From NCBI RefSeq assembly GCF_003426815.1, contig NZ_QKYK01000001.1, positions 62,001-126,000 of the forward strand: a DNA stretch of 64,000 bases, written 5' to 3'. Position numbers and translations under genes: made by a program. The stretch comes from Desertimonas flava (GTDB taxonomy: Bacteria > Actinomycetota > Acidimicrobiia > Acidimicrobiales > Ilumatobacteraceae). Below, one piece after another: positions 55,500 to 61,896 of this stretch (the first letter of the stretch is position 1; each line of letters starts with the position of its first letter). Under the pieces are notes generated by a model. That model was not told the origin of the DNA, ran no database searches, and saw only the letters and a program-made list of their open reading frames with translations.

Positions 55500-56042
55500 T
55501 CAGCCGCCGCCGCTGGTGACGGCGGCGACGATCTCGTCGAAGGCGGCGTCGGCGTAGGCCCGCATCTCGTCGTCGGTGCGGTCTTGGATCGGGTGCGGTG
55601 TGAACACCCTGGCGATCTCGGAGAACCCGAGCGCGGCCGCTTGGGTCGCGGCCGCGTCGACGAACTCGGCAGACGCGACGAACACACCCGGAACCCCTCG
55701 GAGCTCGAGGTCACTGATGTCGTGCACACTGCACGACGTGCAACTGCCTCAATCGGCGAGCGCCTCGATGACCAGGGTGCACTGCACCGAGATCTCGTGG
55801 CGCAGATCGACGGGCGCCGGTTTGGTGAACGTCGGCTTGGCGTAGCGGTGGACGGTTGCTCCGGCGTCGGTGAGCCGGGACTCGAGCCGGTCGAGGAACA
55901 CGTCGCCGCGGGGCTTGGAGATGTCGAGCAGGGCGACGTGCTGGCCGGCGATCGACGCCGGGCGGGCGAGACGCCGGCGTTCGGCGACCTCGCGCTCGCC
56001 CGTCGGGTCGAGGACGTAGCGCGCCGCGGTCGTGTCGCTCAT
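55500..56042 (-). CDS. UGSC-type selenoprotein, read through an in-frame UGA
   Basis: The frame from ATG 56042 reads MSDTTAARYVLDPTGE to EALAD, meets TGA at 55749-55751, and continues in the same frame as GSCTSCSVHDISDLELRG to a true TGA at 55500, giving 180 residues with Sec98. The continuation has no start or ribosome site of its own and keeps coding bias. U98-G-S-C101 is the signature I recall for UGSC (seleno)proteins, whose conserved N-terminus carries VLDPTG as here. C104 is a third nearby thiol. The likely role is a redox or thiol-chalcogen reaction; substrate unknown. It lies 22 bases after its thioredoxin-fold partner and near all sel genes. The family name is from memory, not searched. 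Confidence 0.9.
55719..55751 (-). promoter_or_regulatory. Bacterial SECIS element following the UGA codon
   Basis: Starting 11 bases after the UGA, GTCGTGCA-GTG-TGCACGAC forms an 8-bp perfect stem (or 7-bp with loop AGTGT). E. coli fdhF also has 11 bases between UGA and its apical hairpin. It is the only strong hairpin in this coding segment. Confidence 0.7.
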
Positions 56043-56064: not shown

Positions 56065-57534
56065 TCACGGGCTGACCGCCCTCGTGACGGGCTGGCTGCC
56101 GGTGGTGCCGTTGGCCCAGCCGCCGATGATCGCCGAGAAGAGGCCGGCGCCGCCTCCCGCCGAGGCCAGCAGGATGCCATCGGGCCGGAACTTGGGCAGG
56201 GTCTCGGCGGGGATGCCGGGCTTCACGCCCTCCTCGATGCCGCCGGCGCCGCGCACGAGCTCGTCCATCGGGATGGTCAAGCGGCTGTGCAACTCGGCGA
56301 GGACGCGGTCGCGATCCCAGCCGGCCTCGGCGAACACGCGGATGTGCTCGGGGCCGAGCACCAAGATGGCGTCGAAGGCGATGACGAGCTTGGGGTGATG
56401 AAGGGTGCGCAGGCACGACGCCAGCGTGTTGGCGAGGCTGTCTGGTGTGCGCGAGATCTGGTCGACGACGCAGCGCGGCCCCTCGCCGGCGAACACGGTG
56501 ACGGCGTCGGTGCCGGGCGGGATGCCGCGCTGGGCGGCCAGTGTGCCGAGCGGCGAATCGGCGAGCTCCGGGAAGCAGAACGACAGCTTGCCGGGGTTGC
56601 CGTGGGTGGCTCGATCGACGCCACCGGGACGGCCGCCGCCGACGTTGCGGACCACCAGCTGAACCGCCCGGCCGATCGTCATGTTGGCCCGGTTGCCCTG
56701 GCCGAAGACGTTCACGCCGCTGTTCATGCCGATCGCCTGGGTGCCCGGACCGCTGGCGACGATGACCGGTCCGACGGGCATCGTGGTGGCGAGGACGCCG
56801 TGGATGTTGAACTCGTCGTTGCAGATCGCCTCGATGACGGTGAGGACCCAGGGGAGGTACTCGGGCAGGCAGCCGGCCATGACGGCGGCGATGGCGACCT
56901 TCTCGACCGAGACCTCGACGAGGTCGGGCGGGACGACGGCGACGACGTCTCGCGGCGACCGGGTGGTGCCGGCGAGCATGCGCATCACCCGCTCCTCGGT
57001 GGGCGGGACGACGGGAAGCCCGTCGGTCCAGCCGCGCGTGAACATCGCCTCGATGTCGTCCTCCTGGCGGGCCAACTCGACGCGGCGCGAGTGCAGGATG
57101 CCGCCCTCGAAGCGCACCCGCAGCCGGTCGACGAGGTCGGGGTCGACGCTCAGCGAGCCGCAGCCGGGACGCATCACGGGCAGGTCGTCGCCGAGATCGG
57201 CGATGCCGGTGATCCGCTGCCAGTCCTCGCGGGACCACCCGACGGTGCGTTCCTGCTCCCTCCCGTCGACGACGCGGATGAGCGTCGGCACGGTCTCGAT
57301 GTCGTGGTGCCAGCTGACGGCGAGCTCGGTGTCGTCGACGCCGGCGACCTCGCTGGGGAAGGCCGGGTCGTCCTGCGAGTACACCGTGAGCGGTCCGGCG
57401 TCGGCGAGGCGGGGGAGCAGCGGAGCGACGAGCCGGCAGGTGGCGCACTCCTGCTTCACCACGACGACGAGCCCGTCGGGCAGCGTCGGCGCAGCGGTCG
57501 AGTCCGTCACGGCGGTCGTCGCTGTCGTGGTCAT
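56065..57534 (-). CDS. Thioredoxin-fold protein fused to a large WTDGLPVVPPT domain, partner of the selenoprotein
   Basis: This is a 489-residue protein. Residues 20-120 form a thioredoxin-like domain with C30-A-T-C33 in VVVKQECATCRLVAPLL and a cis-Pro at TVPTL (P83). C125 in MRPGCGSLS follows. From about residue 155 a long domain carries RGWTDGLPVVPPTEERVMRM, NDEFNIHGVLATTMPVGPVI and a Gly-rich end LLASAGGGAGLFSAIIGGW. I know such WTDG proteins as genomic partners of UGSC proteins, though their activity is unknown. The start MTTTATT (57534) is chosen because the longer frame would read back through the tRNA-Sec region. It is first gene of an operon with the selenoprotein. Confidence 0.8.
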   Translation of the reverse strand: MTTTATTAVTDSTAAPTLPDGLVVVVKQECATCRLVAPLLPRLADAGPLTVYSQDDPAFPSEVAGVDDTELAVSWHHDIETVPTLIRVVDGREQERTVGWSREDWQRITGIADLGDDLPVMRPGCGSLSVDPDLVDRLRVRFEGGILHSRRVELARQEDDIEAMFTRGWTDGLPVVPPTEERVMRMLAGTTRSPRDVVAVVPPDLVEVSVEKVAIAAVMAGCLPEYLPWVLTVIEAICNDEFNIHGVLATTMPVGPVIVASGPGTQAIGMNSGVNVFGQGNRANMTIGRAVQLVVRNVGGGRPGGVDRATHGNPGKLSFCFPELADSPLGTLAAQRGIPPGTDAVTVFAGEGPRCVVDQISRTPDSLANTLASCLRTLHHPKLVIAFDAILVLGPEHIRVFAEAGWDRDRVLAELHSRLTIPMDELVRGAGGIEEGVKPGIPAETLPKFRPDGILLASAGGGAGLFSAIIGGWANGTTGSQPVTRAVSP

Positions 57535-57657: not shown

Positions 57658-57753
57658 GGAGGTGTCCGAGTGCCTGGTGGACTCCGCCGCCTTCAAAGCG
57701 GTCGGGACGAGAGCACCTCGTCCGGCGGGTTCGATTCCCGTCCACCTCCGCCA
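57658..57753 (+). tRNA. selC: tRNA-Sec (anticodon TCA)
   Basis: The 96-base tRNA includes encoded CCA. Acceptor GGAGGTG pairs with CACCTCC (seven pairs, then T-C at pair 8). The anticodon loop CTTCAAA carries TCA at 57693-57695 on a GCCGC/GCGGT stem. A long variable arm GGGACGAG/CTCGTCC and T-loop TTCGATT follow. The UCA anticodon and long extra arm identify a selenocysteine tRNA rather than tRNA-Ser. It is convergent with selB. Confidence 0.95.
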
Positions 57754-57843: not shown

Positions 57844-59550
57844 TCAGAGCGCCGGGAGGAGCGGGCCGCCGATGTGGAGCGGGTCGCGTCGTCGCGTCAC
57901 GCCGCGGGCGGCCAGCTCGCCGAGCAGGGCGAGGGCGTACTTGCGGGTGGTCGCCGCGGCGTCGCGGAACTGGGCGACGGTGAACCCATCGGGCGATGTG
58001 GCGAGCAGCGAGGCGGCCACAGCAGCCGCCTCGTCGATCGCGTCCGGATGGAACCACACGCCATCCCGCTCGACGAGGACCCGTCGGGTCCGGAGGTCGC
58101 GGAGCACGTCGCGAGGCGCGTCGGGTTCGGGGGGTTGGAGGCCCCCGAGGCGGAGCTGCTCGACGACCGGGTGCTCCCCCTGACCGGTGGTCCCGAGGGT
58201 CACCCACTCGCCGCTCAGCGTGAGGTCGTCGAGATGATCGACGAGGGCTCGCTCACGATCGTCGAGAAGGCTCGCGGCGAGACCGGGCGCCGGGCTGGCG
58301 GTGACGCGTGCCCGGAGCGACTCGGTGAGAGCGGCGAGGGCGACGGGGTCGGCGACCCATGTCCCGATCGTCGGCTCGACCATCACCCCCGTGAGCCGGG
58401 CGAGATCGGCGCTGGTCACCCACCCGCGCTCGGCAACGACCCGTTGCCATCGGCGATCGGGTGCCGCCTTGGACAGCGGGAGCCGCGGGTCGATGTCGAG
58501 CACCTCGCCGCCGCCGACGGTCTCGTCCCGGCCCGACTCGCGCAGGATGAAGCGATCCCCCGGCAGCAGCGGCAGCCCGACACCGAGACGCAGACGGACG
58601 GCGCCCGTCGCCCCCGGCGCCACCGAGCGGGCGCCGATCACCTGCAGCTCGGAGCGGTACTCGCCCGATCCGATGTGCACGGAATAGGAGCCGCGCCGCC
58701 CGACGTCGTGGGCGATCCCCGCCAGCACGGTGAGCTGGGCATCGAATTGCGACGTCGTCCACCAGTCCGCGGGCGTGACGACGACATCGCCGCGCCGGAC
58801 CGTGTCGGCGGAGACGCCGCGCAGGTTGAGCGCCGCCCGCTCGCGTGCCCCGACCGCCCCCACCGCTTCGCCGCGGACGTGAATACCGCGCAGCGACGAG
58901 GCGACATCGTGCGGCATGACGGCGACGGCCTGGTCGATCGTGAATCCGGCGCCCTCGGTCACGCCGGTGACGATCGTGCCGCTGCCGGCCACCGTGAAGG
59001 CGCGGTCCACCCACAGGCGTGAGCGTCCCGGCCCGGGGGGCGGCGGTGGGTCGACGAGACGGTCGAGCTCTGTGAGGAGGACGTCGAGCCCGACGCCCGT
59101 GCGCGCCGACACGGCGACCCTCGGCACCGTCTCGAGCGGGCTGCCGGCAAGCCGCTCGCCGAGCTCGTCGAGGACCAGCCCGAGGTCCTCGTCGTCGACG
59201 AGGTCGCACTTGGTCACCGCGACGACGCCCCGGTCGATGCCGAGCAGCTCGACGATGCGCAGGTGCTCCTCGGACTGGGCCCGCCACCCCTCGCTGGCGT
59301 CGACGACGAACAGGCACACGTCGGCCCCGCCGACGCCGGCGAGCATGTTGCCGAGGAAGCGGCTGTGACCCGGTACGTCGACGAAGCTCACGGGCCGGCC
59401 CGACGGCAGCGCGGTGTGGGCGAAGCCGAGGTCGATCGTCAGACCGCGTCGCTTCTCCTCGGCAAAGCGGTCGGGGTCGGTACCGGTGAGGGCCTCGATC
59501 AAGGCCGACTTGCCGTGATCGACGTGTCCGGCGGTGGCGATGACGCTCAC
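57844..59550 (-). CDS. selB: Selenocysteine-specific elongation factor SelB
   Basis: This 568-residue GTPase has G1 AGHVDHGKSALIEALTG, G3 DVPGHSRFLGNM and G4 TKCD, with the switch region RRGLTIDLGFA, then EF-Tu-like beta-barrels and a C-terminal run of winged-helix domains (RTRRVLVERDGVWFHPDAID, GELAARGVTRRRDPLHIG) that bind the SECIS hairpin. It delivers Sec-tRNA-Sec to the ribosome at UGA. It is last of the selD-selA-selB operon, 22 bases after selA. Confidence 0.96.
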   Translation of the reverse strand: MSVIATAGHVDHGKSALIEALTGTDPDRFAEEKRRGLTIDLGFAHTALPSGRPVSFVDVPGHSRFLGNMLAGVGGADVCLFVVDASEGWRAQSEEHLRIVELLGIDRGVVAVTKCDLVDDEDLGLVLDELGERLAGSPLETVPRVAVSARTGVGLDVLLTELDRLVDPPPPPGPGRSRLWVDRAFTVAGSGTIVTGVTEGAGFTIDQAVAVMPHDVASSLRGIHVRGEAVGAVGARERAALNLRGVSADTVRRGDVVVTPADWWTTSQFDAQLTVLAGIAHDVGRRGSYSVHIGSGEYRSELQVIGARSVAPGATGAVRLRLGVGLPLLPGDRFILRESGRDETVGGGEVLDIDPRLPLSKAAPDRRWQRVVAERGWVTSADLARLTGVMVEPTIGTWVADPVALAALTESLRARVTASPAPGLAASLLDDRERALVDHLDDLTLSGEWVTLGTTGQGEHPVVEQLRLGGLQPPEPDAPRDVLRDLRTRRVLVERDGVWFHPDAIDEAAAVAASLLATSPDGFTVAQFRDAAATTRKYALALLGELAARGVTRRRDPLHIGGPLLPAL

Positions 59551-59572: not shown

Positions 59573-60847
59573 TCACCGCGCGATGGAGGTGAGGGCGGCG
59601 GTCACCGCAGGATCGTGGTGGGGGTCGACGGCGCGGAGGTCGAGGACCGTCCGCCCCTCGTGGATCCGGGCGATGACCGGGCGGTCGGCGGCCCGTAGCG
59701 ATACGAGGTGATCGCCGTCGATCGCCAGGCCGAACGAGGGAATCGTCGCGCCGGGCGCGGCGCCGGCGCCGGGGACCGCGTCGGTTGCTGTCGGCACGAG
59801 GTGGTCCGCCGTCGCCAGGGCGGCCGCCCTCGCCTCGAGGTCGGCGACCGGCGTCGTCGCCATGCGCCAGAACGGGATCGCCCGGCCGTCACGGCGCAGG
59901 TAGGTCAGCGCCAGGTCCTGCAGGGCGCCCAACACCAGACCGCCCGGCCGGAGGGCGCGAGCCAGGGGGTGGCGGGCGCAGCGTTCGACGAGGTCGGCCC
60001 GCCCGGCGATGATCCCGGCCTGTGGGCCACCAAGCAGCTTGTCGCCGCTGAACGTGACGATGTCGGCGCCGGCGGCCACGGTCTGCACGGCGGCCGGTTC
60101 GTCGGCCAGCCAGCGCGGCGGACCGTCGGGGAGCCACGGACAGCGGCTGTCGAGCAGCCCGCCCCCGAGGTCGACCACGACCGGCGGTCCGATCGTCGCC
60201 AGCTCGGCCACGCCGACCGTCTCGGTGAAGCCCTCGACACGGAAGTTGCTCGGGTGCACCTTGAGGAGCAGGGCGAGGTCGGGGTGGCGTTCGGCGGCGT
60301 GCTGGTAGTCGCCCAACCGGGTCCGATTGGTCGTGCCGACGTCGACGAGGCGGGCGCCGGACTGTTCGAGGACGTCGGGGACCCGGAAGCCCCCGCCGAT
60401 CTCGACGCTCTCCCCGCGGGAGACGGCGACCGACCGGCCGTTGGCGAGGGCGGCGAGCACGAGGAGGACGGCGCCGGCGTTGTTGTTCACGACCATCGCC
60501 GACTCGGTGGCGCACAGTCGGGCGAACAATCCACCGACGGCCGCTTGTCGGGAGCCCCGCTCGCCCGACTCGAGGTCGAACTCGACGGTCTGGGCAGCCG
60601 CCGGCTGCCGGTGGGCGACGGGCGCTCGGCCGAGGTTGGTGTGGAGCAGCACACCGGTGGCGTTGATGACCGGGCTGAGCAGGCGGCGACGTCGCGAGTC
60701 GGCGACCGCCTGCGCGGAGTCGGGCCGACCGTCGGCGATCGCCTGCCGGGCGGCATCGACCAGCAGGGGGTGGGGAAGGCCCTGCAGACGGCGCGCCAGC
60801 GCATCGACCGACGGAGGGCGGTCGGCGACGGGTTCGCTCGTGGTCAT
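59573..60847 (-). CDS. selA: L-seryl-tRNA(Sec) selenium transferase SelA
   Basis: This 424-residue PLP enzyme converts Ser-tRNA-Sec to Sec-tRNA-Sec with selenophosphate. It has the family start NATGVLLHTNLGRAP, MVVNNNAGAVLLVLAALANG and the PLP lysine in TFSGDKLLGGPQAG. Its N-terminal region (ARRLQGLPHPLLVDAAR) is the tRNA-binding part. The start overlaps the selD stop by a few bases (ATGA), so the three sel genes form one operon. Confidence 0.96.
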   Translation of the reverse strand: MTTSEPVADRPPSVDALARRLQGLPHPLLVDAARQAIADGRPDSAQAVADSRRRRLLSPVINATGVLLHTNLGRAPVAHRQPAAAQTVEFDLESGERGSRQAAVGGLFARLCATESAMVVNNNAGAVLLVLAALANGRSVAVSRGESVEIGGGFRVPDVLEQSGARLVDVGTTNRTRLGDYQHAAERHPDLALLLKVHPSNFRVEGFTETVGVAELATIGPPVVVDLGGGLLDSRCPWLPDGPPRWLADEPAAVQTVAAGADIVTFSGDKLLGGPQAGIIAGRADLVERCARHPLARALRPGGLVLGALQDLALTYLRRDGRAIPFWRMATTPVADLEARAAALATADHLVPTATDAVPGAGAAPGATIPSFGLAIDGDHLVSLRAADRPVIARIHEGRTVLDLRAVDPHHDPAVTAALTSIAR

Positions 60848-61896
60848 TTCGTCACGTCGACGCCGGGGTCACTGGCCGACGCGACGTCGCCGACCCGCCA
60901 CCACGTGAGTCCGGAACCGCCGACGGGACGGCCGACGAGATCGTCAGCCACCTCGGGAGCCACTGCGGCCAGCAGCCCACCGGACGTCTGCGGATCGAAG
61001 CAGAGGGCGTCGTCGGCCTCGCCGCCCGACGACGTGAACCGCCCGTCGACGTAGGCCCGGTTGCGGGGATCGCCGCCGGTCCGGACGCCGTCCTCGGCTG
61101 CCTCGCGCGCTCCCGCGTAGGCGATCAGGCCGGCGGCGTCGATGCGCACCCGGACGCCCGATCGCTCGGCCATCTCCCATGCGTGACCGGCGAGTCCGTA
61201 TCCCGTCACATCGGTGACGGCGTGGACGGCCGGGCCGGCCGCGACGAGCTGCTCGGCGGCGTCGCGGTTCAGCGTGCGCATGCCGCCGATCGCCGCCGCT
61301 TTGGCTGCTTCCGATCCCCCCGCCAAGGCCAGCGCCGTGCCGATCGGCTTGGACAGCACGAGCACGTCGCCGGCGAGGGCGCCGCCCTTGCGGAACACTC
61401 GGCGGGGGTCGACGAGGCCTTGGACGGCGAGACCGAAGATCGGTTCGGGGTTGCGGATCGTGTGGCCGCCACCGATGGAGCCGCCGGCGTCGCGCACGAC
61501 CTCGGACGCGGCGGCGAAGATCGTGGTGATCACCTGGCGCGGCATCTCCTCGGGGAAGGCGGCGATGTTCAGCGCCACGGCGACCCGACCGCCCATGGCG
61601 TACACGTCGCTGCACGCGTTGGCAGCGGCGATCGCCCCGAAGTCCGCCGGGTCGTCGACGAGGGGAGGAAAGAAGTCGGTGGTCGACACGAGGGCCAGGT
61701 CGTCGGACACCTGGTAGATGGCGGCGTCGTCGAACGGGGCGAGGCCGACGAGTAGGCCCGGCGCCGCCGTGGACGGCAGCTCGTCGACCAGTTCGCGCAG
61801 CAGTGACGCGCCCCACTTCGCCGCGCAGCCGCCGCACGACGTCCACTCGGTGAGCCGGATCGTGGCCGTGGGCGGGGCGTCGGTGGCGTTCGTCAC
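60844..61896 (-). CDS. selD: Selenide, water dikinase SelD
   Basis: This 350-residue enzyme makes selenophosphate from selenide and ATP. It has a catalytic Cys and Lys in TEWTSCGGCAAKWG, DLALVSTTDFFPPLVDDPAD, GGSIGGGHTIRNPEPIFG and the conserved LCFDPQTSGGLL near the end. The active-site residue is Cys rather than Sec, so SelD itself is not a selenoprotein. It is first gene of the sel operon. Confidence 0.97.
   Translation of the reverse strand: MTNATDAPPTATIRLTEWTSCGGCAAKWGASLLRELVDELPSTAAPGLLVGLAPFDDAAIYQVSDDLALVSTTDFFPPLVDDPADFGAIAAANACSDVYAMGGRVAVALNIAAFPEEMPRQVITTIFAAASEVVRDAGGSIGGGHTIRNPEPIFGLAVQGLVDPRRVFRKGGALAGDVLVLSKPIGTALALAGGSEAAKAAAIGGMRTLNRDAAEQLVAAGPAVHAVTDVTGYGLAGHAWEMAERSGVRVRIDAAGLIAYAGAREAAEDGVRTGGDPRNRAYVDGRFTSSGGEADDALCFDPQTSGGLLAAVAPEVADDLVGRPVGGSGLTWWRVGDVASASDPGVDVTK

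Follow-up and report, generated by a model that had tools for sequence, protein, structure and literature searches.

Bacterial SECIS (bSECIS) elements are modelled as hairpins with a UGA-to-loop distance of 16–37 nt, a loop of 3–9 nt, an upper stem of 4–16 bp and a folding energy of −7.5 kcal/mol or lower. In the published consensus the first or second loop nucleotide is a G, with G or U as the usual next base, and no bulged U is called for (PMC13188914). In the E. coli fdhF element, according to a review, the bulged U of the stem is needed for SelB binding (PMC8704476). UGSC selenoproteins were catalogued in marine metagenomes (PMC2398784) and have also been described from Actinobacteria in which UAG encodes Sec (PMC5330540); NCBIfam and Pfam curate them, and the function of such families is described as largely uncharacterised (PMC13188914). 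Here we compare these systems with a hairpin in a UGSC gene of Desertimonas flava, which is almost certainly the bacterial SECIS of that gene.

A hairpin 11 nt past the UGA of a UGSC gene

The window, the whole stretch of 64,000 nt that was analysed, contains a gene that becomes a single 180-aa frame once its TGA is read as U, with the UGA at the U of the motif UGSCTSC. The product matches NF041046 over nearly its whole length (159 bits against a curated cut-off of 125) and PF24696 with 150.7 bits against a cut-off of 25. With a full-length match and the Sec codon in the UGSC motif, we found no difference from the UGSC selenoproteins of these two families, to which Acidimicrobiia add many members and paralogues. 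The features of the gene are as follows.

55500..56042, minus strand: UGSC-family selenoprotein gene, 180 aa, stop UGA at 55502-55500 (NF041046, PF24696)
55749..55751, minus strand: in-frame UGA, Sec98 of the UGSC protein (reading frame, family match, alignment in 165 genes)
55738..55748, minus strand: 11-nt spacer GGCAGUUGCAC from the UGA to the hairpin
55719..55737, minus strand: hairpin with 8-bp stem and GUG loop, almost certainly a bacterial SECIS
55737-55730 and 55726-55719, minus strand: arms of the stem
55727..55729, minus strand: apical loop GUG, with G23 at 55729 and U24 at 55728 (U of the UGA counted as 1)

On the minus strand the hairpin reads GUCGUGCA-GUG-UGCACGAC, with all eight base pairs perfect, and as DNA it is a palindrome too. 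Its sequence, coordinates and 11-nt distance from the UGA had been given exactly in a preliminary description of the locus. Folded alone, the 19 nt reach −10.9 kcal/mol. In contexts of 33–60 nt, seven of the eight stem pairs have a probability of at least 0.99. The A-U pair that closes the loop reaches only 0.66, so the loop can be taken as 3 nt or, with this pair open, as 5 nt, and its earlier rendering as AGUGU, with a G-U step, is a fair description. A competing TGCAC/GTGCA fold, to which attention had also been drawn, does exist at −3.9 kcal/mol but holds about 0.1% of the population; it is minor and unimportant.

Measured against the bSECIS consensus, the hairpin shows no violation, with 19 nt from UGA to loop, a 3-nt loop, an 8-bp stem and a loop G followed by U. 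The comparison with E. coli fdhF, whose sequence we checked in 5,368 E. coli genomes, is more mixed. Both elements have the same 11-nt spacing, carry the loop G-U at the same nucleotides 23-24 and flank the loop with GCA...UGC. In contrast to fdhF, which has its bulged U at U17, the UGSC hairpin is a continuous 8-bp stem without a bulge; its loop is 1 nt shorter, and the conserved lower stem of fdhF is missing. A lower stem of the fdhF kind was considered for the UGSC genes and rejected, as all five of its pairs occur in only 12 of 139.

Conservation of the stem in UGA-containing genes

UGSC genes were gathered from class and phylum searches and from 80 genome loci (Actinomycetota), affording 165 genes with UGA, orthologues and paralogues together, and 23 in which a Cys codon takes its place. 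The hairpin stands at exactly +11 nt in 162 of the 165 UGA genes. The remaining three are distant paralogues (L168-L170) that can form a GU-loop hairpin displaced by 2 nt, with a possible loop CGUGC as read by eye, suggesting that the element may shift its position within the family. A UGA gene lacking any such hairpin, the case that had been named as refuting a SECIS, did not occur among the 165.

Pair statistics were collected from 69 distinct aligned UGA sequences, with the displaced L168-L170 left out. Stem positions pair in 96.7% of cases, compared with 91.7 ± 0.5% in shuffles, and 0 of 500 shuffles came as high; the covariation score was likewise reached by none of 500. Four of the eight pairs show two-sided changes, a number reached by 1 of 500 shuffles, and sliding the partner by 1–3 columns lowers pairing to 6–58%. 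The two outermost pairs are broken in 5 and 11 of the 69 sequences, and the middle of the stem is nearly invariant. Loop nucleotides G23 and U24 are invariant (69/69), and at position 17 all sequences have a C that pairs with G, which bears out the earlier remark that no bulged U is visible. While the hairpin is thus kept in Sec genes, the structure is absent from the Cys homologues: their 20 distinct sequences pair at 58.8%, a level attained by 86 of 500 shuffles; their covariation score, by contrast, is nominally high, with 16 of 500 shuffles reaching it.

Other selenoprotein families of the same class offer an independent view of the loop. FdhA genes with an internal UGA mostly have a stem of about 6 bp and the loop GGUCU, with GU at nucleotides 23-24 in 25/25, and SelW-like genes have loops such as CGUGA, with GU at nucleotides 22-23 in 31/31, one nucleotide closer to the UGA than in UGSC. 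Stem sequences differ among these elements; the apical GU and a similar distance from the UGA are common to them, and a bulged U in the 5′ arm is generally missing from the predicted FdhA and SelW folds. All three families occur together in genomes G002, G008 and G027. As the FdhA and SelW elements also lack a bulge and keep the loop GU, SelB of this lineage probably recognises the G-U loop on an uninterrupted stem and not a bulge, as far as sequence comparison can tell. The earlier expectation that SelB recognition might differ from that in E. coli finds only partial support. The bulge is indeed missing, but the loop G-U sits at the fdhF positions, the local SelB is of the winged-helix type found in Moorella, the FdhA and SelW elements are bulge-free as well, and the consensus asks for no bulge.

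If the hairpin is a SECIS, SelB of this lineage might still recognise some feature other than the loop G-U, such as the shape of the stem or a lower stem. The loss of the E. coli bulge and the near-invariance of the mid-stem would both fit such recognition. We consider it unlikely, since the loop GU stays constant while stem sequence varies among UGSC variants, FdhA and SelW, and the lower stem is unconserved.

Codon-level evidence

Taken as a single sequence, the hairpin is beyond chance only mildly; with the orthologues it is so overwhelmingly. The 60-nt stretch is not significantly more stable than its shuffles (z = −1.29), and perfect hairpins with an 8-bp stem and a 3-nt loop number eight on one strand of the GC-rich 64-kb window. 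Among random synonymous recodings of the peptide, the same 8-bp stem arises in 2.1% and a fold of equal stability in 4.4%. The codons that spell SCSVHD are nearly complementary to one another, so the peptide predisposes to such a stem. Rfam holds no SECIS family that matches the hairpin. Searching the genome with a model of the element turned up no convincing further copy (next match E = 0.007, 20.6 vs 61.9 bits), and a fixed-spacing pattern search stayed at chance level, with 4 matches against 6 in the reversed control. With single-sequence tests weak and Rfam silent, the case rests on comparison.

The comparison is most telling at the level of codons. At codon 6 after the UGA, Cys (UGC), Gly (GGC) or Trp (UGG) is encoded. 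Wherever this codon ends in C, the wobble of codon 8 is G (153/153), and wherever it is UGG, replacing Cys104 by Trp, the wobble of codon 8 is C (12/12), with codon 8 encoding Val, Leu, Ile or Cys; as raw sequence counts, these figures overstate independence. In Cys homologues with the same Trp, codon 8 ends in G or C, uncoupled. On the tree, this C-G to G-C swap corresponds to three independent changes, one of them on a well-supported branch. With so few independent swaps, their count alone would not carry the argument, which draws on the frozen wobbles as well.

Wobble positions were followed on the tree of a 139-gene core set. Those of codons 6, 7, 8 and 10 show 0 changes, the zeros at codons 6-8 being partly by construction because these codons define membership of the set. 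Three changes were counted at codon 5 and nine at codon 9; outside the hairpin, the counts rise to 16–56 at codons 12-24 and 26–31 at codons 2-3. The coupling of codons 6 and 8 described above holds in the unselected 165 genes, and the loop codon 7 gives a similar picture there: Ser105 is AGU in 160/160 UGA genes with Ser there, compared with an AGU share of about 6% among Ser codons elsewhere in the same UGSC genes, and Ser at this codon in Cys homologues is mostly AGC or UCG.

These patterns speak against a stem that arose as a by-product of coding for SCSVHD, in which catalytically conserved residues with self-complementary codons would produce an RNA structure without a role. The recoding frequencies above lend this idea what appeal it has. 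Nevertheless, wobbles of stem and loop are frozen while their neighbours vary, an amino-acid change in one arm is matched by the wobble of the other arm in UGA genes only, Cys homologues encode the same residues by different codons, and FdhA and SelW reach GU loops from unrelated coding sequence. A coding by-product is accordingly very improbable.

Upstream of the hairpin, at codon 2 after the UGA (55743-55745, minus strand), AGU is favoured over AGC for Ser (65%, compared with 27% at other sites of these genes), and no bias of this kind was seen at codon 3. AGU at codon 2 would weaken a competing 6-bp hairpin, CUGCAC/GUGCAG. The bias may reflect selection against misfolding, in sequences that are not independent of one another.

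The UGSC protein, its neighbour and the Sec machinery

We dismiss with near certainty the idea that the UGA simply ends translation or is a sequencing error, with the hairpin serving as a terminator, pause site or DNA operator palindrome, as its palindromic character in both DNA and RNA might suggest. The frame runs on for 82 codons past the UGA with family similarity on both sides, and the UGA is kept in 165 genes from many genomes. The stem lacks a U-run behind it, and the GU loop with near-constant UGA spacing recurs in unrelated genes with different stems.

An AlphaFold model of the UGSC protein (pLDDT 94.5) places Sec at the N-terminus of a predicted helix (residues 99-114) that follows strand 90-96. 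A fold search with this model returned a common alpha/beta arrangement only, with no clear family. Residues 95-159, around the Sec motif, have weak HMM similarity to selenoprotein B of glycine/sarcosine reductase (E ~0.08), hinting at a distant relationship between the UGSC and GrdB active sites.

Upstream of the UGSC gene lie a partner gene and the genes of the Sec machinery.

56065..57534, minus strand: partner gene directly upstream of UGSC, encoding a thioredoxin-like N-terminal domain and a large unassigned domain
57658..57753, plus strand: tRNA-Sec (selC), anticodon UCA (Rfam RF01852, 64.8 bits; ARAGORN)
57844..59550, minus strand: selB, Sec-specific elongation factor with C-terminal winged-helix domain (TIGR00475; PF09107 SelB-wing_3; 1WSU)
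59573..60847, minus strand: selA, Sec synthase (TIGR00474, 377.9 bits, over cut-off; PF03841)
60949..61857 (contig 122949-123857), minus strand: matched part of selD, selenophosphate synthetase, without internal UGA (TIGR00476, 325 bits)

SelB scores 237 bits against the full-length equivalog TIGR00475 (E = 4e-70), slightly short of the 242 bits set as the curated cut-off. Moorella SelB (1WSU, E = 1.4e-5) aligns with its C-terminus, where the RKY and TRR residues are kept. The tRNA-Sec gene lies between selB and the UGSC pair, on the strand opposite to both. Together with the UGSC match across the UGA, the proximity of selD, selA, selB and tRNA-Sec supports reading the hairpin as a SECIS.

The partner gene encodes 489 residues, with a weak thioredoxin match and the motif CATC in its thioredoxin-like N-terminus. 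Its large C-terminal domain has no Pfam or NCBIfam match, and a fold search with the whole model gave nothing but low TM-scores beyond the thioredoxin part. Of 67 loci with sufficient flanking sequence, 64 have this gene directly upstream of UGSC and on its strand; this co-location suggests that the two form a redox pair and are likely functional partners. No internal UGA was found in the FdhA-type, AhpC/TSA peroxiredoxin or CMD matches listed for this genome, and SelW is absent from it. Among the families tested (FdhA, SelW, AhpC/TSA and CMD), UGSC may thus be the only customer of the local selA/selB/selC/selD set.

Discussion

A SECIS identity for the hairpin, which the preliminary description had proposed, has become very probable through the in-frame UGA of a known family, orthologues with the element at the same distance, compensatory changes and the lack of the structure in Cys homologues. 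By analogy with the known pathway, we infer that SelB binds the hairpin and that Sec is inserted at the UGA. During translation of the UGSC mRNA, SelB carrying Sec-tRNA-Sec and GTP would use its C-terminal winged-helix domain to bind the hairpin, with loop nucleotides G23-U24, exposed on a rigid stem, as the main contact. Sec would then be delivered to the UGA 11 nt upstream instead of termination, completing the U-G-S-C redox motif.

Hairpins of this type are already known; the step past annotation is a rule common to three families, that of a GU loop without a bulge. The analysis also confirms as one selenoprotein gene a frame that default annotation would break in two at the UGA. The locus and its relatives form an unusually clean natural data set, with about 160 UGA genes set against 20 distinct Cys homologues as controls, compensation visible in the codons, and three unrelated families of one class that share a bulge-free GU loop, from which SECIS rules outside E. 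coli are testable. Tentatively, and with slightly more doubt than belief, we suggest that SelB of Acidimicrobiia might read nothing but the apical G-U, placed on an uninterrupted stem at a near-fixed distance from the UGA and with no bulged U, in three unrelated families. If so, the recognition grammar of this lineage would be simpler than that of E. coli.
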